Both the position numbers and the translations under genes were made by a program. Below the pieces are notes generated by a model. It saw nothing but the letters and a program-made list of their open reading frames with translations, ran no database searches and was not told where the DNA came from. This document shows positions 14,854 through 25,195 of a DNA stretch of 34,202 nucleotides, piece by piece; the stretch's first letter is position 1; each line of letters begins with the position of its first letter. The stretch comes from Clostridiales bacterium (GTDB taxonomy: Bacteria > Bacillota > Clostridia > Lachnospirales > CAG-274): positions 1-34,202 of the forward strand of contig JAJQFB010000074.1 in NCBI GenBank assembly GCA_021201395.1, in the 5' to 3' direction.

Positions 14854-17800
14854 TTATTTTTTCATATCTCTGTTTATATCAAAAATACTCAATTTATCTC
14901 TGTCTATCTGTTCCTCCATAACATCGCACATAGCCGCAACGGTATCCATAGCGGTTATAATTGTTATAGAGCTTTCAACGGCGGTTCTTCTTATCTTAAA
15001 GCCGTCGGAATTGACATTGTTGGCCTTTCTGGGAATATCTATAATAAGATCAATAACTCCGCTCCTTATTACGTCCAAAACATTGGGTACTCCCTCGCTT
15101 ATTTTCTTTACGTTCTGCACCCTTATGCCGTTTTCCGTAAGACACCTTGCCGTTCCTTTAGTGGCTATAAACCTACAGCCCATATCTGCGAACCTCTTTG
15201 CAATAGGCGCAAAATTAGGGTGTTCCTTGCTTGTTACCGTGGCAAGGATAGTGCTTCCGGGCTGAGGCACGGTCATTCCTGCGGCAATAAAACCCTTATA
15301 GAGGGCATTGTGGAGATTATATCCTACTCCCAAAACCTCTCCCGTAGACCTCATCTCAGGCCCTAATGAAACCTCAACCTTAGGCAGCTTCTCCGTAGAG
15401 AACACAGGCACCTTAACGGCCACAACCTTAGACTCGGGCGCTATAGCAGTACCGTAGCCCATACTCTTAAGCTTCTCGCCCAGCATAACCCTTGTGGCTA
15501 TGTCTATAACAGGCACTCCCGTAACCTTTGTAATATAGGGGACGGTTCTTGAAGAACGGGGATTGACCTCAATAATATTAAGCTCGCCCTTATACTCTAT
15601 AAACTGAATATTTATCATTCCTATAACGTCAAGAGCAACGGAAATCCTCTGTGTTTCGTCCATAATTGCCCGTTTGATTTCATCGGAAATATGCTGAGGA
15701 GGATATATTGATATACTGTCGCCGGAGTGAACCCCTGCTCTTTCCAAATGCTCCATTATACCGGGGATATAAACGTCCTCTCCGTCACATATGGTGTCAA
15801 CCTCAATCTCGCGTCCTCCCAGATAGCGGTCTATAAGCACGGGATTTTTGCTGTCCTTTATAAAGGCCTCCTCCAGATACTGAACAAGCTCTGTCTTATT
15901 GTGGGTAATCTCCATACCCTGACCGCCCAAAACGTAAGAGGGTCTTACAAGAACGGGATAACCCAAATTATCGGCAACTTCGATTCCCTCGTCAACAGAC
16001 CAGACTCCCTTTCCCTTAGGCCTCCTTATATTAAGGCTTTCCAAAACGGCGTCAAACTTTTCTCTGTCCTCGGCGGCGTCTATGTCCTTAGCTTTCGTTC
16101 CGAAAATGGGAATATTCATTTCGTCAAAGAATTTCGCCAACTTTATGGCCGTCTGTCCGCCGAACTGCAAGATTACGCCGTCGGGCTTTTCTCTTTCGAC
16201 TATATTCAAAACGTCCTCCTCCGTCAAAGGCTCAAAATAGAGCTTGTCGGAGGTATCAAAGTCCGTAGATACTGTTTCCGGATTATTATTTACGATTATA
16301 GTTTCTATTCCCGCCTTTTTAAGTGCCTTAACACAATGAACAGAGCAGTAGTCAAACTCAATTCCCTGTCCTATTCTTATGGGGCCGCTTCCTATAACCA
16401 TAACCTTACGCCTGTCGGAAACGATAACCTCGTCCTCCTCCTCATAGGCGGAATAATAATAGGGCGTTACGGCCTCAAATTCCCCTGCACAGGTATCAAC
16501 CATTTTAAACACGGGCATAATATTCCACTTTTTCCTCAGTGCATATATATCCGGAGGCTGACAGTTTAAAATTTTGGCAAGAGCCTTGTCTGAAAAGCCT
16601 GTTTTCTTATAGTGTGAAAGTGTTCTCTTATCAAGCTCTTCAAGAGTTATTGTCTTGAGATCCTCCTCCATTTCAACAAGCCTCTTTATCTTCTCCACAA
16701 AGAACAAGTCCATACCCGTAATCTGGCAAACCTTTTCAACCTTATAATTGCGTCTTAACATCTCCGCAAGGTCGAAAATTCTTTCATCATCAGGCGAAAC
16801 AACGCTCTTTTTAAGCTCCTCAAGGCTTTTCCTCTTTGAACTCAGTCTTTCAAGACCGTACTGGCCTATTTCAAGAGAACGTATACCCTTTAAAAGTGCA
16901 GCCTCAAAAGAGGAGCCTATAGACATAATCTCTCCCGTAGCCATCATCTTTGTACCCAGCGTCCTCTTAGCACCGAAAAACTTATCAAAGGGCCATCTGG
17001 GGAATTTAAGAACGCAGTAGTCTATTGTAGGCTCAAAACAGGCCGTGGTCTTTCCCGTTACGGCGTTTGGAATTTCGTCAAGATTATACCCTAAGGCAAT
17101 CTTCGCCGCAACCTTTGCTATAGGGTAGCCCGTAGCCTTGGAAGCAAGAGCCGAGGAACGGCTTACTCTGGGGTTAATCTCTATTACGGCATAGTTATAG
17201 CTGTTGGGGTCTAAGGCAAACTGAACGTTGCAGCCGCCCTTAATTTCTATTGAATTTATAATATTTATAGCCGCACTCCGAAGCATCTGATATTCCCTGT
17301 CGGAAAGTGTAAGTGCCGGTGCAACGACTATTGAGTCCCCTGTATGTACCCCTACAGGGTCTACATTTTCCATAGAACAGACGGTTATGCAGTTTCCGGC
17401 TCCGTCTCTCATTACCTCAAACTCAATTTCTTTCCAGCCGGCTATGCTCTTTTCAATAAGACACTGACCTACACGGCTTAAGTGAAGCCCCCGGGTCAAA
17501 ATTTCCCTAAGCTCTCCCTCGTCCTTACAGATTCCGCCGCCTGTTCCGCCTAAGGTATAGGCAGGCCTTACAATAACGGGGAAGCCTATTGAATAGGCAT
17601 AGCTTACGCCATCTTCAACGCTTGTTACAATATCCGATTCAACTATGGGCTGATTCGTTCTCTCCATAAGGCTTTTGAACCTGTCCCTGTCCTCCCCCTC
17701 TTTTATGGATTCAATGGAGGTTCCTATAACATTTACGTGATATTTATCCAAAATTCCGCTGTCGTAAAGCTCAACTGAAAGATTAAGCCCCGCCTGACCG

Positions 17801-18072
17801 CCCATCCCGGCAATTATGGAGTCCGGTCTTTCTTTGGCTATAACCTTTTCAACAAAATCTATAGTCAAAGGCTCAATATAGGTATAGTGTGCCATTCCTA
17901 TGTCGGTCATAATGGTAGCCGGGTTTGAATTTACCAAAACAACCTCAATGCCCTCCTCCTTTATGGATTCGCAGGCCTGAGTGCCGGAATAGTCAAACTC
18001 CGCAGCCTGTCCTATAACTATAGGGCCGGAGCCTATAACAAGAACCTTTTTAATGGAATTATCCCTTGACAT
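14854..18072 (-). CDS. carB: Carbamoyl-phosphate synthase large subunit
   Basis: CarB makes carbamoyl phosphate from bicarbonate, two ATP and the ammonia channelled from CarA, for pyrimidine and arginine synthesis. The 1072-aa protein has the duplicated architecture. Each half starts with a VIGSGPI-x-IGQ-x-x-EFDY motif (residues ~12 and ~560) and holds an ATP-grasp domain (GGTGGGIC in the first, [10 protein letters not shown] in the second). An allosteric MGS-like domain covers the last ~140 residues. The length is normal, and no frameshift is seen over 3.2 kb. The ATG lies inside the carA 3' end (14-base overlap) with GAGGGAG upstream. It is the last gene of the operon. Confidence 0.97.
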
Positions 18073-19156
18073 TGCTTCTCACTCCCTCTGTAATTTTTAT
18101 AAATCTGTCAAACAAAAATTGTACGTCAAGAGGGCCGGGAGACGCCTCCGGGTGGAACTGCACCGTATAAATGGGCTTTGTCTTGTGGCGTATGCCCTCT
18201 ATTGAATTGTCGTTTATATTTATAAAGGAAGCCTCAACGTCCTCCGGCAGGTCACAGACCACAAACTCGTGGTTCTGGCTTGTTATATAAACCCTGCCTG
18301 TCTGGGTGTCCTTTACAGGGTGGTTTCCGCCGTGATGGCCGAATTTAAGCCTCTTCGTCTTGCAGCCCAAAGCAAGGGAAACAACCTGGTTTCCGAGACA
18401 GATTCCCAAAATAGGCAGACCTGTTTCTATAATTTTCCTCACATTTTCAACAACCGTGGGAATATCCTCCGGGTCGCCGGGGCCGTTTGCCAAAAAGAGG
18501 GCGTCCGGCTTAACAGCCAAAATTTCCTCGGCAGAGGTAAAGGCCGGGAAAACCGTCAGCTTACAGCCTCTTTTGCTTAGCTCTCTCAAAATACCCTGTT
18601 TAATTCCGCAGTCGAGAACGGCGAAGTGGGTGCCTATGCCGTTTATAACATATTTTTCCTTTATGGTTACCTCTTCAACGGCGTGTTTGTTTGTATATGT
18701 GTTGAATTTCTGCTTAATCTGGCTTTGGGTTAAGTCATCGGCACGGGTGGTTATAATTCCTCTCATTGTGCCGTTGTCTCTTAAAACCCTTGTTAAGGCT
18801 CTTGTGTCTATACCCTCAAGTCCCATAATCTTGTTCTGCTTTAAAAAGCCGTCAATGTCCATTTCACAGCGCCAGTTATTGGGGGCTTCACACTTTTCCC
18901 TTACTATAAAGCCCTTAAGAAAAGGCTTTCTGCTTTCCATATCCTCAAGGTTTACACCGTAATTTCCTATGAGGGGAAAGGTCATAACTACAATCTGTCC
19001 TGCATAGGAGGGGTCTGTCAGGGTTTCCTGATAACCTGTCATATTTGTTGTAAAAACAACCTCCCCTACGGTTTCCTTAATATATCCAAAGGCTTTTCCT
19101 GTAAAGACCTTTCCGTTTTCAAGTATAAGAGAGGCTTTAACATTCTTTTTCAACAT
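18059..19156 (-). CDS. carA: Carbamoyl-phosphate synthase small (glutaminase) subunit
   Basis: CarA hydrolyses glutamine and hands ammonia to CarB. It has the N-terminal CPSase small domain ([22 protein letters not shown]) and a class I amidotransferase domain with the nucleophile in [15 protein letters not shown], and the catalytic His-Glu in FHPEASPGP. The longest frame begins at 19165, but there AGGAG directly abuts the ATG. The ATG at 19156 lies eight bases after AGGAG and shares its A with the pyrF stop (TGATG). I choose that start, giving 365 aa and translational coupling to pyrF. Confidence 0.96.
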
Positions 19157-20082
19157 CAGATACATCTCCTTAAGTCATTCTTCATATCTATACAGGCCTG
19201 TCTTGCGGCAAAGGCAAAATTCCTCTCGTCATTATAACAGGTCTTATATTCATCTTTCATATGGGCTGCAATTATTCCCCTTGAGGAATTGACTATTGCT
19301 CCGATTCCGTCCTTGAAGCAAACGGATAAATCCTCGGCTGTTCCACCCTGCGCTCCGTAGCCGGGAACGAGGAAGAAAGTATGGGGCATAACCTCTCTGA
19401 GTCTTGCGGCCTGCTCCTTATGGGTAGCCCCTACAACAGCCCCAACTGAGGAATAGCCGTATTTTCCCATAAGTCCCTCGCCCCATTTTTCAATAAGACC
19501 GCCTACGTGTTCATATATGGGCTTGCCGTCGCAGATTAAATCCTGAAGCTCGCCGCTTTTGGGGTTTGAAGTCTTTGCTAAAACAAACAGCCCCTTTTCA
19601 TATTTTTCACAGTCAGCCAAAAAGGGAGTTATGCTGTCGGAGCCTAAATAGGGATTCAGGGTTATAAAGTCGTGCTTAAAGCCCTCGGAAGCTTCTCCGT
19701 TTATGTCAGCTCTGCCTATATGTCCGTCGGAATAGGCCTCGGCGGTAGAGGCAATATCGCTTCTCTTAATGTCCCCTATAACAATAAGCCCCTTCATTTT
19801 AGCATATTCAACCGTCTTTTCATAGGCCTTAAGCCCCTCAATGCCGTACCTCTCATACATGGCAATCTGAGGCTTAACAGCCGGAACAATATCAAACACG
19901 GCATCAATTATCTTCTTATTAAACTTAAGCATAGACTTAGCCGCCGCCTTAGGCCTGTTCCCGTACTTAGCAAAATACTTTTCCGTAATATAAGACGGAA
20001 TATAAGAAAGTCTCGGGTCAAGCCCCACAACCGTAGGGTTCCCCGTTAAATTAATTTTTTCAATAAGTCTGTCAATAATCAT
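19156..20082 (-). CDS. pyrF: Orotidine 5'-phosphate decarboxylase (type 2)
   Basis: PyrF decarboxylates OMP to UMP, the last step of de novo synthesis. The protein is about 308 aa, the longer 'type 2' form, with TVVGLDPRL at the N-terminus. The active-site strand is GDIKRSDIAS, where the Lys and two Asp form the catalytic network. LVPGYGAQGG is the phosphate loop. The frame can be extended to a TTG at 20088, but AGGAGG is only two bases from it and eight from the ATG at 20082, so the ATG is taken. Its ribosome site touches the pyrC stop. Confidence 0.95.
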   Translation of the reverse strand: MIIDRLIEKINLTGNPTVVGLDPRLSYIPSYITEKYFAKYGNRPKAAAKSMLKFNKKIIDAVFDIVPAVKPQIAMYERYGIEGLKAYEKTVEYAKMKGLIVIGDIKRSDIASTAEAYSDGHIGRADINGEASEGFKHDFITLNPYLGSDSITPFLADCEKYEKGLFVLAKTSNPKSGELQDLICDGKPIYEHVGGLIEKWGEGLMGKYGYSSVGAVVGATHKEQAARLREVMPHTFFLVPGYGAQGGTAEDLSVCFKDGIGAIVNSSRGIIAAHMKDEYKTCYNDERNFAFAARQACIDMKNDLRRCI

Positions 20083-20097
20083 AATCAATTCCTCCTT

Positions 20098-21390
20098 TTA
20101 AAGCTTCACCAATACCCCATTTTCAACAACAATCTCTCCGCCGACAACAGTATAAAGAATCCTGCCCTTTACTTTCCTGCCTCCAAACGGCGTATTTTTA
20201 GCCTTTGAAACCATATCCTCAACATCAATAATATATTCCTCATTGGGGTCTGCTATGGTTATGTCAGCCGCAGCCCCTACGCTTAAGGTTCCCTTGCCGT
20301 TATGAAGTATTTTTCCGGGATTATAACTCATCTTTTCAACAAGGCCGCAGGGTGTCAAATATCCCCCCTCTACAAGCTCCGTATTTGCCAGCGGAAATGA
20401 GGTTTCAAGGCCTATAATACCGTTTAGGGCATTCTGAAACTCGCAGTTTTTCTCATCTATGTGATGGGGAGCATGGTCTGTTGAAATAACCTCTATTGTT
20501 CCGTCCTTTAAGGCTTGCCTTACGGCTTCTCTGTCCTCTTTTGAGCGGAGAGGCGGCGCCATCTTGAAGTTAGCGTCATAGTCGGTTATATCCTCATCAC
20601 AGAGTGTAAAGTGATGGGGCGTAGCCTCCGCCGTCACCTTAACTCCCCTTTCCTTAGCCTGTCTTATAAGCGTAACAGAGCCTTTGGTGCTTATGTGGCA
20701 CAGATGAATAGCCGTATTCGTACTTTCCGCAAGTATCATATCCCTTGCTACGATAACCTCCTCGCTGTCGTTTGAAATTCCGGCAAGACCCATATAGGCC
20801 GCCTGTGCCCCTGCGTTCATTTGACCCTTTCCCGTAAGAGAGGGGTCCTCGCAGTGGTCGAAAACAGGAAGATTAAACATTTTGGCATATCTCATAGCGT
20901 TCTTCATAAGGGCGCTGTTCAAAACGCTTTTTCCGTCCTCGGAAAGGGCGCAGATTCCTGCGGAAGCCATTCTGCCTATGTCGGAAAGCTCCTCACCTTT
21001 CATACCCTTTGAAATAGCCCCTATAGGCAGGACGTTCACAATACCGGCTCTTTCCGCCTTAAGCTTTACAAATTCCACAACAATGTCATTGTCAACAACA
21101 GGCTCCGTGTTGGGCATACAGCAAACCGTTGTAAAGCCCCCCATAGCCGCCGCTCTGGAGCCTGTTCTTATGGTTTCCTTTCTCTCAAAGCCCGGCTCCC
21201 TGAAATGAACGTGCAAATCTATAAGCCCCGGCATAACCCACTTTCCTTTTGTGTCAATAATTCTCTCGGCCTTATCCTCTATGTCTTTTTCAACCTTTAC
21301 AATCTCCCCATTGCAAACAAGCACGTCCCTAACCTCGTCTATGCTGTTTGCCGGGTCTATAACTCTTCCGCCTTTTATAAGTATGCTCAT
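20098..21390 (-). CDS. pyrC: Dihydroorotase (class I)
   Basis: PyrC cyclises N-carbamoyl-aspartate to dihydroorotate. The 430-aa amidohydrolase has DLHVHFREPG near residue 58 (metal-binding His pair), a metal-ligand region HCEDPSL, the CHIST motif, and ISTDHAPHH with the catalytic Asp near residue 304. The length is normal for the class I enzyme found in Firmicutes. AAGGAG lies seven bases before the ATG, and pyrB ends 25 bases upstream. Confidence 0.97.
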   Translation of the reverse strand: MSILIKGGRVIDPANSIDEVRDVLVCNGEIVKVEKDIEDKAERIIDTKGKWVMPGLIDLHVHFREPGFERKETIRTGSRAAAMGGFTTVCCMPNTEPVVDNDIVVEFVKLKAERAGIVNVLPIGAISKGMKGEELSDIGRMASAGICALSEDGKSVLNSALMKNAMRYAKMFNLPVFDHCEDPSLTGKGQMNAGAQAAYMGLAGISNDSEEVIVARDMILAESTNTAIHLCHISTKGSVTLIRQAKERGVKVTAEATPHHFTLCDEDITDYDANFKMAPPLRSKEDREAVRQALKDGTIEVISTDHAPHHIDEKNCEFQNALNGIIGLETSFPLANTELVEGGYLTPCGLVEKMSYNPGKILHNGKGTLSVGAAADITIADPNEEYIIDVEDMVSKAKNTPFGGRKVKGRILYTVVGGEIVVENGVLVKL

Positions 21391-21415: not shown

Positions 21416-22342
21416 TCAGTTTAAATCGGGATTAGCTTCATACAACAGCTTTAGTATTGCCATTCTTACGGCAACTCCATTCTTAACCTGTATATTTATA
21501 ACGGAATTTTTACCGTCTACAACATCGGTGGAAAACTCAACCCCTCTGTTTACGGGGCCGGGGTGCATAACAAGGGCGTCCTTTTTAGCATACTGCAAAA
21601 GACCGCTGTTTATGCCGTAGAGGGTGGAATATTCTCTTGTGTTGGGGAAAGGCATATTTTTCTGTCTTTCAAACTGTACTCTCAGCCCCATAACAACGTC
21701 GGCATCGGCAATAGCCCCCTTTATGTCGCTTGTCACCTTAACCCCCAAAGACTTCATACTGCCGGAGATAAGAGTCGAAGGGCCTGCCAGCGTTACCTCA
21801 GCCCCCAACTTAACAAGACCGAAAGCGTTGCTCCTTGCCACTCTCGAATGGCTTATATCCCCCAAAATGACAACCTTTAAGCCCTTAAAGCCCCCTAAAT
21901 AGTCGTAAATTGTGTACATATCCAAAAGTGCCTGTGTGGGGTGTTCGTTGGTTCCGTCTCCGGCGTTTATAACGCAGGCCTTTACATTCCTTGCCAAAAC
22001 CGCCGAAGCCCCCGTCATTTGGTGGCGCATAATCATAAACTTAACGCCCATTTTGTCAAGGTTAAGCCCTGTATCAATAAGGCTCTCCCCTTTGTTTACG
22101 CTGCTTGTGGCAACGCCCAGATCCTGAACTATTCCCCCTAAATATGCCCCCGCCAGCATAAAGGAGGTTTTCGTCCTCGTGGAATTTTCATAAAACATAG
22201 CTATAATACTTGACTTGTTGAGAGTGTTGTCCCGAAGACCCGGGTCGTCAATCTTCTTCTTCATCTCTCTTGCCGCCGTCAATATTTCCATAATTGTTTC
22301 GCCGCTTAAATCACGCAGCCCCAAAAGATCCTTGCCTAACAT
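21416..22342 (-). CDS. pyrB: Aspartate carbamoyltransferase catalytic subunit
   Basis: PyrB condenses carbamoyl phosphate with aspartate, the committed step. FYENSTRTKTSF holds the carbamoyl-phosphate loop, HPTQALLDMYT the aspartate-domain hinge, and MHPGPVNRG the C-terminal loop. No regulatory subunit (pyrI) is adjacent. The longest frame starts at a TTG (22390) that lies inside the terminator hairpin. The ATG at 22342 has AGGGGG nine bases upstream, comes just after the U-run, and gives 308 aa, the standard size. First structural gene of the operon, it sits directly behind the leader attenuator. Confidence 0.96.
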   Translation of the reverse strand: MLGKDLLGLRDLSGETIMEILTAAREMKKKIDDPGLRDNTLNKSSIIAMFYENSTRTKTSFMLAGAYLGGIVQDLGVATSSVNKGESLIDTGLNLDKMGVKFMIMRHQMTGASAVLARNVKACVINAGDGTNEHPTQALLDMYTIYDYLGGFKGLKVVILGDISHSRVARSNAFGLVKLGAEVTLAGPSTLISGSMKSLGVKVTSDIKGAIADADVVMGLRVQFERQKNMPFPNTREYSTLYGINSGLLQYAKKDALVMHPGPVNRGVEFSTDVVDGKNSVINIQVKNGVAVRMAILKLLYEANPDLN

Positions 22343-22366: not shown

Positions 22367-22408
22367 AAAAAAAGACAATTCAACGAACAAAACGCCCGTC
22401 TGATTGTC
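22367..22408 (-). terminator. Leader terminator (attenuator) of the pyr operon
   Basis: On the minus strand GACAAT pairs with ATTGTC at the base, then GACGGG with the GTTCGT-side arm after a two-base internal loop. Seven U residues follow immediately (22373-22367). The hairpin lies between the leader peptide stop (20 bases before it) and the pyrB ribosome site, so it must be read through for the operon to be expressed. Confidence 0.75.
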
Positions 22409-22427
22409 TGAAATATTAAAAGAATTA

Positions 22428-22532
22428 TTAAAAGAAATGTTGTAAAAATTGTGAAATAAAAGAAATAGAAGAAGAAACAGAATGAAATAATTTAATAAGA
22501 AAAACCTTACTCATATAACTTAAGCATTCCAT
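22428..22532 (-). CDS. pyr operon leader peptide, 34 aa, U-rich codons
   Basis: A perfect ribosome site (AAGGAGG, 7-base spacing) precedes an ATG at 22532. The frame runs 34 codons to tandem TAA TAA. The peptide starts MECLSYMSKVFLIKLFHS and ends QFLQHFF, with nine Ile/Leu/Val and seven Phe residues. The message from about codon 10 to the terminator is about 60% U with only two G in roughly 97 bases. This copies the logic of enterobacterial pyrL. There, low UTP makes polymerase pause in U-runs, so the ribosome catches up and prevents hairpin formation; high UTP uncouples them and terminates. The function is inferred; the ORF, ribosome site and terminator are seen directly. Confidence 0.75.
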   Translation of the reverse strand: MECLSYMSKVFLIKLFHSVSSSISFISQFLQHFF

Positions 22533-22564
22533 ATAAGCTCCTCCTTCAAAATTTTATTACTACC

Positions 22565-22593
22565 ATAATATCAAATACAACATATTTTGTCAA
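22565..22593 (-). promoter_or_regulatory. Consensus promoter of the pyr operon
   Basis: On the minus strand, TTGACA (22593-22588), exactly 17 bases, then TATTAT (22570-22565). The predicted start is near 22558, 26 bases before the leader peptide ATG. This is one of the strongest promoters in the window, as expected for an operon controlled after initiation. Confidence 0.8.
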
Positions 22594-22657: not shown

Positions 22658-23253
22658 TTATATCTCCCGGCGGATTATATCCCTTAGTGTCTGCATAGAC
22701 ATATCCACCGAAGCGATTTCGTCCGCACAGCGTTTAAGCTCGCTTCTTATCATTTTTTCGTTTTTAACCCGGTGCTTATATTTAATCTGGTGTTCGAGAG
22801 CCGCCCAAAAATCGGTGGCTATGGTTCTGACCTGAATCTCCGTCTGTATACCTTTCCCCACCCCCTCTTTCATAGAGAGAATAAGGTGGAGGCTGCGGTA
22901 GCCGTTGGGCTTGGGTCTTAATATGTAGTCCTTTTTTTCATAACCTCAAATTCATCTCTTTCACAAAGCCAATTTACAACATCGTAAACATCATCAACAA
23001 AGGGGCAGATTATCCTTATGCCTACAATATCGTGCATTTCTTTAAGGGCTGTGTCCAAATCGGTTGAAAGACCCTTAAGCTTAAGCTTTTCAATAAGGCT
23101 GTCGGGGGATTTTATTCTTGACTTGCAGTAAACAATAGGCTCCACCCCCTCAAGGGGCTTCTGACCCTCGAAGCCCTCTATTATATTTAAAAGATATGCC
23201 TCGGTCTGTTTTAATGCCTCAAGCCTATCTCCGTAGTATTCCTCATATGTCAT
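22658..23253 (-). pseudogene. Small alarmone synthetase (RelQ/YjbM-type), split by -1 frameshift at A7
   Basis: The product would be a 198-aa single-domain (p)ppGpp synthetase. Residues 1-107 run MTYEEYYGDR through HDIVGIRIICPFVDDVY to EFEVMKK. In the -1 frame the protein continues KDYILRPKPNGYRSLHLI, then EIQVRTIATDFWAALEHQ and a C-terminal helix. Both halves are well conserved in type, and together they give the whole synthetase fold. The break is at A7 (plus-strand T7, 22932-22938) just before the synthetase core. In the unshifted frame translation stops five codons later (RTTY-stop). It may be a real mutation, an assembly error, or slippage on the A-run. AAGGAG precedes the ATG, 16 bases after the kinase stop, so it belongs to the regulator-kinase operon. 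Confidence 0.85.
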
Positions 23254-23269: not shown

Positions 23270-24501
23270 CTAAACGGGAAGCGTTACCGTAATAAGCAGG
23301 GACTTCTCGTCCTCCGTAGAGGCTGAAATTTTACCCTTATGAGCCTTTACCGTAGACGCCGCAATGGAAAGACCTAAGCCGTAGCCCCCTGTCCGGGAAT
23401 TTCTTGAGCTGTCTGTTCTGTAAAAGCGGTCGAAAAGGGAGCCTAAGCTTTCCTTTTTTATAGAGGCCGTGGTGTTGTATACGCTTAAGCGGACTGAGCG
23501 GCGGCCGCCCTTAAGGGAAAGGGAAATTTCCCCCTCTTCCTCCGAATATTTCACAGCGTTATCTAAAAGTATGCTTATAAGACGGCGGACTGCTTTTTCG
23601 TCTCCGTGAATAACAACATTTTCGTCAATATCGCTTTTAAGACTCTTGTTTTGTGCTTTTGCCACAGTGCCGTAGGAGCCTGCGGCCTCTCTTGTCATAT
23701 CCGTCAGAGAAAACTCGGTTATATCCGTAAGAATTCCGCTCTCCTCCGCACGGGACAGCACAATAAGATTGTTGGTAAGCTCCGCCATATGCTTTGTTTG
23801 ACTGTGTATGTCCTTAAGCCACTCGTTCTCCCCTATATCCATCTCCAAAACCTCTGCGTCTGCGTTTATAATAGCCAGAGGTGTCTTAAGCTCATGGCCT
23901 GCGTCGGTTATAAACCTTTTCTGCTTTTCATAGTTTTCCAAAAAAGGCTTTACTATCCGTCTTGAAATAAGTATAAGCAGAATCATAACCGCCCCAAGCC
24001 TATAAGAGAGGTTGTTATGCTTGCCAAAAGAAAGGTTTTGGCGGTGGACAGGCTTCGGCTGCAATCCAGAAAAATTATATAGGTATAGCCCCGTTTTTCA
24101 TTTTCCTCCACAATATATCTGTAGCCGTCTATAAAACCGCTTTCCCTGCCTCCCGATAAAATCTCCCCTGCATACTCCATAGCCGCAGCTTCATCAACCG
24201 CCGCAATTTTATCTATGTTCGTAAAAATTACATTCCCCGAATTGTCTGCGGCAATGTAAAAATACCTCGATTCATAGGGCAGCTCCGAAGATTCCAAAAA
24301 ATCCTCATTGCCCCACTTGATATATATCTCAACTCCCGGGAAAACTCCTTCGTTTTCCGCAAGCATAGAAAGAATAAGGTCAGAGCTTTTTATTATAGAA
24401 TGATAATTATATAAATTGGCAGCACCTACAATTACCGTTAAAACCACCAAAAGGGAAAGCATAGAGGCTCCTATAAGCTTAATCTGTAATTTCCTTATCA
24501 T
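23270..24501 (-). pseudogene. Sensor histidine kinase, split by -1 frameshift at G4
   Basis: Reading through one missing base gives a 410-aa kinase. TM1 is at 10-30, an extracytoplasmic sensor domain at about 31-153, TM2 at about 156-180, then a dimerisation helix with His203 in ITDAGHELKTPL. The N box is LISILLDNAVKYS, and the G box is TGGYGLGLSI. The first frame ends LIGLGRL-stop at 23983; the second frame enters as LGAVMILLILIS. They join at the G-run 23992-23995, where a fifth G would restore the frame. The break falls in TM2, so a truncated sensor without kinase would result. Its ATG overlaps the response regulator stop by four bases. Confidence 0.85.
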
Positions 24502-25160
24502 ATTGTCTGCTCCAATCCGTAGCCCTCTTCAGAGCTTATGTCAACGTCGGCACTTAAATAGGCCAGCTTCTTCCTTAAATAGGATATGTAAATATTAACT
24601 ATTCCCTCTTCCGCCTCGGGTTCGTCGCTCCAAAGCTTTTCCTTAAGCCTTTCGGCGGATATGCGGCTGTTGGGGCTGTTCATCAAAACCTCCAAAAGCT
24701 GAAATTCTCTGTTGGCAAGGCGAAGCCCTCCCGTAGGGGTGGAAAGCTCTAAAGTTTCCCTGTCTATGGTAACATTTCCGAAGCTGAGTTTGGGGTGCTT
24801 CCGAAAGGTTCCCGTCATAGCCTGTATTCTGGCTATAAGCTCCTTTGAGTTAAAGGGCTTTGTAAGGTAGTCGTTTGCCCCCGCTTCAAGCCCCGTCACC
24901 TTGTCCTCTACCTCAGACTTCGCCGTAAGCATAATAGCCGGCGTCAGATTTCCGCTCTCTCTTATATTCTTAAGAACGGTTATACCGTCAATCTTAGGCA
25001 TCATTATATCCAAAACAAAAGCGTCATAACTCTCGCTCTCCATTTTTTCAAGAGCCTCTTCTCCGTCAAAAACCGCATCCACACTGTAGCCGCTTCTCGT
25101 TAAAATAGCTGTCAAAGCCCTCGACAAAGATCTCTCGTCCTCCGCAAGCAAAATTTTCAA
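24498..25160 (-). CDS. OmpR/PhoB-family response regulator
   Basis: The 220-aa protein has a receiver domain with acidic pocket AEDE, phospho-acceptor Asp51 in LDIMMPKIDG, Thr/Ser79-type switch LTAKSE and Lys101 in LTKPF. A C-terminal winged helix follows (LANREFQLLEVLMNSPNSRIS, then VNIYISYLRKKL). The frame opens at an ATG at 25181, but GAGGAGGAG is inside that extension. It sits eight bases before a TTG at 25160, which gives the family-typical start (M)KILLAEDER, so the TTG is chosen. It forms an operon with the kinase and the alarmone synthetase. The target genes cannot be told. Confidence 0.93.
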   Translation of the reverse strand: MKILLAEDERSLSRALTAILTRSGYSVDAVFDGEEALEKMESESYDAFVLDIMMPKIDGITVLKNIRESGNLTPAIMLTAKSEVEDKVTGLEAGANDYLTKPFNSKELIARIQAMTGTFRKHPKLSFGNVTIDRETLELSTPTGGLRLANREFQLLEVLMNSPNSRISAERLKEKLWSDEPEAEEGIVNIYISYLRKKLAYLSADVDISSEEGYGLEQTI

Positions 25161-25195
25161 ATCCGTCTCCTCCTCAGTCATATAATCTGTATTTC

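Follow-up and report, generated by a model that had tools for sequence, protein, structure and literature searches.

A pyr operon with a translatable leader

In Firmicutes, control of the pyr operons is generally ascribed to PyrR. The operon studied here, pyrB-pyrC-pyrF-carA-carB of a Clostridiales bacterium from the gut, lies in a genome (97% complete) in which no pyrR gene was found. The DNA analysed was a stretch of 34,202 nt, all of which is called the window below. Reading along its minus strand, one meets a promoter, a ribosome site, a 34-codon leader ORF, a U-rich tract, and a terminator, followed by the operon itself (Table 1). An earlier reading made from the letters of the window without database searches (the sequence-only reading) had named and placed these parts, with the seven U residues of the terminator and a pyrB ribosome site, and all of them were confirmed; GGGGGC is found upstream of the pyrB ATG at 22342.

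Table 1. Features of the pyr leader and operon in the window. Profile confirmation applies to pyrB; the four genes after it were named from sequence.
Feature	Position	Strand	Basis
Promoter: TTGACA (22593-22588), 17-nt spacer, TATTAT (22570-22565) preceded by TG	22565..22593	−	promoter scan; kept in relatives
Leader ORF ribosome site, GAAGGAGGAGC	22537..22547	−	sequence
Leader ORF, 34 codons, ATG 22532 to TAA 22428	22428..22532	−	ORF reading
U-rich, G-poor tract; putative UTP-dependent pause region	22410..22506	−	base counts
Segment UGUUUCUUCUUCU, complementary to the ribosome site of the leader (duplex of −14.5 kcal/mol)	22467..22479	−	predicted pairing
12-nt tandem repeat, 2.4 copies; leader stop within the upstream copy	22410..22438	−	
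Intrinsic terminator: hairpin AGACAATCAGACGGGC..GTTGAATTGTCT (22409-22373, −15.5 kcal/mol) and 7-U run ending at 22367	22367..22409	−	sequence, folding
pyrB, aspartate carbamoyltransferase catalytic subunit	21416..22342	−	NCBIfam NF002032 profile
pyrC, dihydroorotase	20098..21390	−	named by eye from sequence
pyrF, OMP decarboxylase	19156..20088	−	named by eye from sequence
carA, carbamoyl phosphate synthase small subunit	18059..19165	−	named by eye from sequence
carB, carbamoyl phosphate synthase large subunit	14854..18072	−	named by eye from sequence

The leader promoter is the joint best promoter-like match between positions 15000 and 25000, agreeing at 11 of 12 positions. A generic scan of the region for promoters and terminators returned no more sites than shuffled sequences did, and the significance of the arrangement therefore rests on the combination of its parts and, above all, on their conservation in relatives. 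The tract in front of the terminator is the U-richest and G-poorest stretch of the window: among ~68,000 frames of 97 nt on both strands, only two, overlapping and both within the leader tract, reach 60% U or more with no more than two G. The sequence-only reading had described about 97 bases with ~60% U and two G; the U-richness stood, but the frame as counted comprises 58 U and three G.

PyrR was not found in the genome or its family

The best PyrR-like match in the window's own genome (E = 1e-13) was rejected, as it is Hpt, hypoxanthine phosphoribosyltransferase. A curated PyrR model detected PyrR in 9 of 31 genomes from other families of the same order, but not once in the 48 genomes examined from the window's family. 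In a wider draw, PyrR was present in 51 of 294 genomes of the order, none of which belonged to the window's family or to those genomes of a sister family, f17, whose leaders we studied. No PyrR binding loop was found in the window leader or in the leaders of its family, and Rfam gave no match above threshold in the window or in the leaders scanned; annotation can therefore easily overlook such leaders. The sequence-only reading had seen no PyrR-type antiterminator, and here the searches agree with it; it had also proposed that the genome be searched for pyrR.

The leader frame, and not its peptide, is conserved

Alignment of related pyrB leaders had also been proposed, and we gathered them from 79 close genomes, the 294-genome draw of the order, and 243 genomes of the class. 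The ORF, ribosome site, U-richness, and hairpin proved to be conserved; within the window's family these elements and the promoter are present in nearly all leaders. A frame was counted as open if its stop preceded the hairpin by 9 nt at most or lay farther downstream, and the expected number was taken from dinucleotide shuffles. By this measure, and with relatives that are not independent of one another, the leader frame stays open as far as the hairpin in 41 of the 43 leaders from the window's family (8.5 expected; two starts set by eye), in 12/12 leaders of f17 (1.8 expected; ten starts by eye), in 19/19 leaders with a PyrR loop (0.8 expected; four by eye), and in 8/8 and 6/6 leaders of families outside the order (1.1 and 0.2 expected; all starts by eye). 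The other two frames were open in 9 and 5 leaders of the family, in 2 and 2 of f17, and in none with a PyrR loop. Automatic starts were scored on the ribosome site and hairpin, not on openness. The family count excludes L005, which has an assembly gap, and L037, for which no terminator was found, and the 19 PyrR-loop leaders do not include L149, L151, and L155-L158, in which the ORF is degenerate or stops early, or L110, which is classical.

The leader stop falls mostly in the 5′ arm or the loop of the hairpin, and in some leaders (e.g., L052, L131, L184, and L203) the ORF passes the whole terminator, as it does in pyrL. Within groups of close leaders, substitutions are spread evenly over the three codon positions (311, 283, and 317) and indels are mostly multiples of three, while the leader peptides share no run of residues. 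Selection appears, from these alignments, to act on the leader being translated and not on the peptide, a pattern which fits translation-coupled antitermination of the kind known from pyrL.

Leader ORFs of this kind were also seen farther away. In family f30, from another order of the class (L185, L203, and L213-L218), the ORFs before pyrB end in or cross a AAATAGTAAGA..TCTTACTATTT terminator; these leaders have no PyrR loop, and four of their eight genomes have no PyrR gene. In families f70 and f90 (L179, L184, L202, and L210-L212), pyrR lies just upstream of pyrB with a leader ORF between the two; this ORF runs into or through the terminator, and no PyrR loop could be recognised at its ribosome site.

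The window's own leader is an outlier

The sequence-only reading had considered the distance between the leader stop and the hairpin, which it put at 20 bases, to be a weak point. The gap exists and measures 18 nt, and it is a peculiarity of the window and not a general one, given that the ORF of the family normally enters the hairpin, which is the arrangement that defines coupling of the pyrL type. In the close relative L006 the stop lies 6 nt before the hairpin, and in most of the family it lies inside. The distance in the window is due to the 12-bp tandem repeat, of which L006 carries one copy where the window carries 2.4 (22410-22438). With its stop beyond the 9-nt limit, the window itself fails the strict frame test.

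In E. coli constructs with gaps of 17-18 nt, termination was ~0.12 in one sequence and ~0.8 in another, and it was full at gaps beyond 30 nt; the boundary in pyrBI is described as steep (PMC4824070). By analogy, suppression of termination at the 18-nt gap of the window is possible but uncertain, and coupling at this leader may be partial. As neighbouring genes look frameshifted (see below), an assembly error or decay in the window is also conceivable.

U content and a segment complementary to the ribosome site

Leaders without a PyrR loop are richer in U than those with one: U/(A+U) is 0.61 as against 0.49 (p = 2e-8), and the 45 nt that precede the hairpin contain 56% U as against 44%, a contrast that is drawn over few independent lineages, in which PyrR may have been either lost or gained. 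The higher U content where PyrR is missing is in the direction to be expected if UTP-dependent pausing had taken over the sensing.

In many loop-less leaders, among them 22 of the 43 family leaders (p < 0.05), the leader ribosome site is complementary to a segment in the U/C-rich interior of the leader; the PyrR-loop leaders gave 0 of 21 (p = 5e-6 by Fisher over genus medians; difference between groups, p = 0.001). When the growing transcript of the window was folded, the probability of the ribosome site being unpaired fell from 0.91 to 0.00 once the complementary segment had been made; the median fell from 0.81 to 0.09 in the family, from 0.55 to 0.04 in f17, and from 0.45 to 0.02 in f30. In leaders without the loop, the site was predicted to be less open than with dinucleotide-shuffled interiors (p = 1e-6) and less open than pyrB's own site (p = 5e-13), although in the window pyrB's site is also predicted to be closed (0.06). 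Such closure was not shown by the PyrR-loop leaders or the f70 and f90 leaders when their growing transcripts were folded, and in genus g6 of the window's family it did not exceed that of shuffles. The predictions thus suggest that the leaders share one more conserved element, directed against the ribosome site, which the sequence-only reading had missed and which is not universal.

Relatives with PyrR place its loop on the same ribosome site

Among the leaders examined from PyrR-bearing genomes of the order, the start is as a rule immediately preceded by a PyrR loop, CCUUUAA..UGGUCCNGNGAGRCCA..AAAGG, whose lower stem takes in the leader ribosome site when folded. In the upper stem, two pairs show changes on both sides, and 91% of cells are paired (no more than 43% when slid); its covariation is only modestly above that of column shuffles, 42 of 500 of which reach it. 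Downstream of the loop, the leader ORF enters or crosses the terminator in 19 leaders. The combination of a PyrR loop with the ribosome site of a terminator-entering ORF, absent from the window, is seen for example in L106, L107, and L141. In such relatives, PyrR with UMP would hide the leader ribosome site and keep ribosomes off, whereupon the terminator would form.

The leader ORF is not universal in PyrR-bearing genomes, as is evident from its degenerate or early-stopping forms, and some leaders of family f2 have lost it. In L041 and part of f2, the 5′UTR can pair with the 5′ arm of the terminator, a possible classical antiterminator. Such pairing is suggested for L041, L051, L152, and L154, which may use both routes, the antiterminator and the leader ORF. 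In L110 (genome G060), two PyrR loops follow one another ahead of pyrB; the first precedes a terminator to which no obvious leader ORF belongs, and the second covers pyrB's own ribosome site.

In the pyr leader of Thermus strain ZO5, Van de Casteele et al. in 1997 reportedly proposed that PyrR acts together with the translating ribosome, with no antiterminator. The PyrR-loop leaders of the related families match that arrangement, whereas both PyrR and the loop are absent from the window and its family. The sequence-only reading had suggested convergent evolution. Since the same layout of an ORF running into a terminator is found in PyrR-bearing relatives, a PyrR-gated ancestor of the Thermus type is no less likely than a fresh invention.

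A proposed mechanism and its alternatives

In the window's family, termination is in our view very likely controlled by translation of the leader; we hold this with less assurance for the window's own, gap-lengthened copy. The fuller reading, which we regard as probable, is that of a translation-coupled attenuator of the pyrB-pyrC-pyrF-carAB operon for which UTP, as we infer, is the signal. A ribosome following RNA polymerase closely on the leader would mask the 5′ arm, no hairpin would form, and the operon would be read; with the ribosome lagging or absent, the hairpin would form and transcription would stop. At low UTP, polymerase would slow down in the U-rich tract, giving the ribosome time to load and to catch up. 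A further layer is predicted, in which the U/C-rich tract, once transcribed, would pair with the leader ribosome site and shut it. This would leave only a short time for ribosome loading, which low UTP would lengthen; in PyrR-bearing relatives, closure of that site would fall to the PyrR loop. We put forward only tentatively that one U/C-rich tract might serve as a protein-free switch that both slows polymerase at low UTP and ends ribosome loading, and that it replaced the PyrR loop closing the same site in related families. If so, a regulator protein was exchanged for a co-transcriptional timer while the output, ribosome against terminator, was kept. In Bacillus subtilis, transcription is described as running ahead of ribosomes, and coupling in Clostridia is therefore itself an assumption.

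Among the alternatives, the one that survives best, itself unlikely, keeps the coupled attenuator but gives it a signal other than UTP: ribosome availability, or a factor acting on the leader ribosome site or the helix that closes it, would make the operon follow translation capacity or growth rate. That predicted helix would be a control point which needs no UTP, and pausing at low UTP is itself a supposition. Against this, leaders are U-richer where PyrR is missing, as UTP sensing predicts, and a pyrimidine-sensing PyrR loop holds the same position in relatives.

It is rather improbable that, at least in the window, a fixed terminator merely follows an incidental U-rich ORF, any coupling having perhaps been lost with a stop 18 nt away. 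The window's failure in the strict frame test and the frameshifted appearance of its neighbours would agree with this, but conservation is family-wide and gaps of this length can still allow suppression in the E. coli constructs cited above.

Rho-dependent attenuation, in which the untranslated leader would load Rho and the hairpin would be secondary, seems very improbable to us. The usual Rho substrate is a pyrimidine-rich, G-poor RNA, which the leader RNA resembles. A report that a purine bias shields genes from being terminated prematurely when transcription runs ahead (PMC13323073) also counts in its favour. Yet nearly every relative has an intrinsic terminator with a U run, and the end of the ORF tracks the hairpin. 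Attenuation of the trp or his type, or by a stalling leader peptide, can point to a leader peptide and a terminator but is barely tenable and was rejected, since the peptides share no residue run, the evenness of substitutions over codon positions and the frame-keeping indels argue against it, neither regulatory codons nor an alternative antiterminator was found, the ORF itself covers the 5′ arm, and pairing of the 5′UTR with that arm is at chance level in PyrR-less leaders, for which a classical antiterminator made of these two segments was likewise rejected.

Relation to known pyr leaders

The translation-coupled, UTP-responsive attenuator that we favour would be a variant of translation-coupled pyr attenuation which works like pyrL, with no claim of descent from it. 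As in pyrL-pyrBI of Escherichia coli and Salmonella, a translatable U-rich ORF with its ribosome site lies directly before pyrB, the U-rich tract lies between its start and the terminator, the terminator normally falls within the ORF or where it ends, though 18 nt later in the window, and a ribosome would mask the hairpin with no need of an RNA-binding protein. The sequences are unrelated, however; pyrC, and not pyrI, comes next to pyrB; the Clostridial ORF usually ends inside the hairpin and not beyond it; and the Clostridial leaders have the predicted anti-ribosome-site helix, to which sister lineages add PyrR.

The PyrR attenuators of B. subtilis (RF00515) likewise have a terminator before the pyr genes, and their loop consensus recurs in the outgroup leaders; the window's family differs in having no PyrR, loop, or antiterminator pairing, and its control would act through translation. 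In Mycobacterium, PyrR represses translation by means of a PyrR loop over the ribosome site of a structural gene. The outgroup leaders also have the loop over a ribosome site, but that site belongs to a leader ORF ahead of a terminator.

The sequence-only reading knew of no described translation-coupled pyr attenuator in Clostridia, and our literature search, which took in only a minor part of the subscription titles, found no description of a Clostridial pyr leader ORF. The same layout recurs across many Clostridia, with and without PyrR. If the proposal is true, a widespread leader ORF translated in step with transcription shows that Clostridia regulate by coupling, and it offers a direct test of coupling; PyrR-gated and PyrR-less leaders would then be a natural experiment in which polymerase kinetics replace a regulator protein.

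Other pyrimidine genes and the neighbours of the leader

A second ATCase-like gene, 46% identical, is located at G000:C128:12996-13877. Its orthologues (e.g., L114-L117 and L120) sit behind an rluD-like pseudouridine synthase gene, and no attenuator was apparent before them, the relatives being where this was checked. The pyrK-pyrD genes come after argH and have no separate leader.

Immediately ahead of the leader (22658-23253, minus strand), two adjacent ORFs each encode half of a single RelA_SpoT domain (profile positions 1-57 and 82-111). The pair looks like a small alarmone synthetase gene that was frameshifted by decay or by an assembly error near a G-rich run. Beyond it, a histidine kinase gene (23270-24501, minus strand), which adjoins an OmpR-type regulator gene (24498-25181), is broken into two overlapping ORFs that do not share a frame, which suggests another frameshift.
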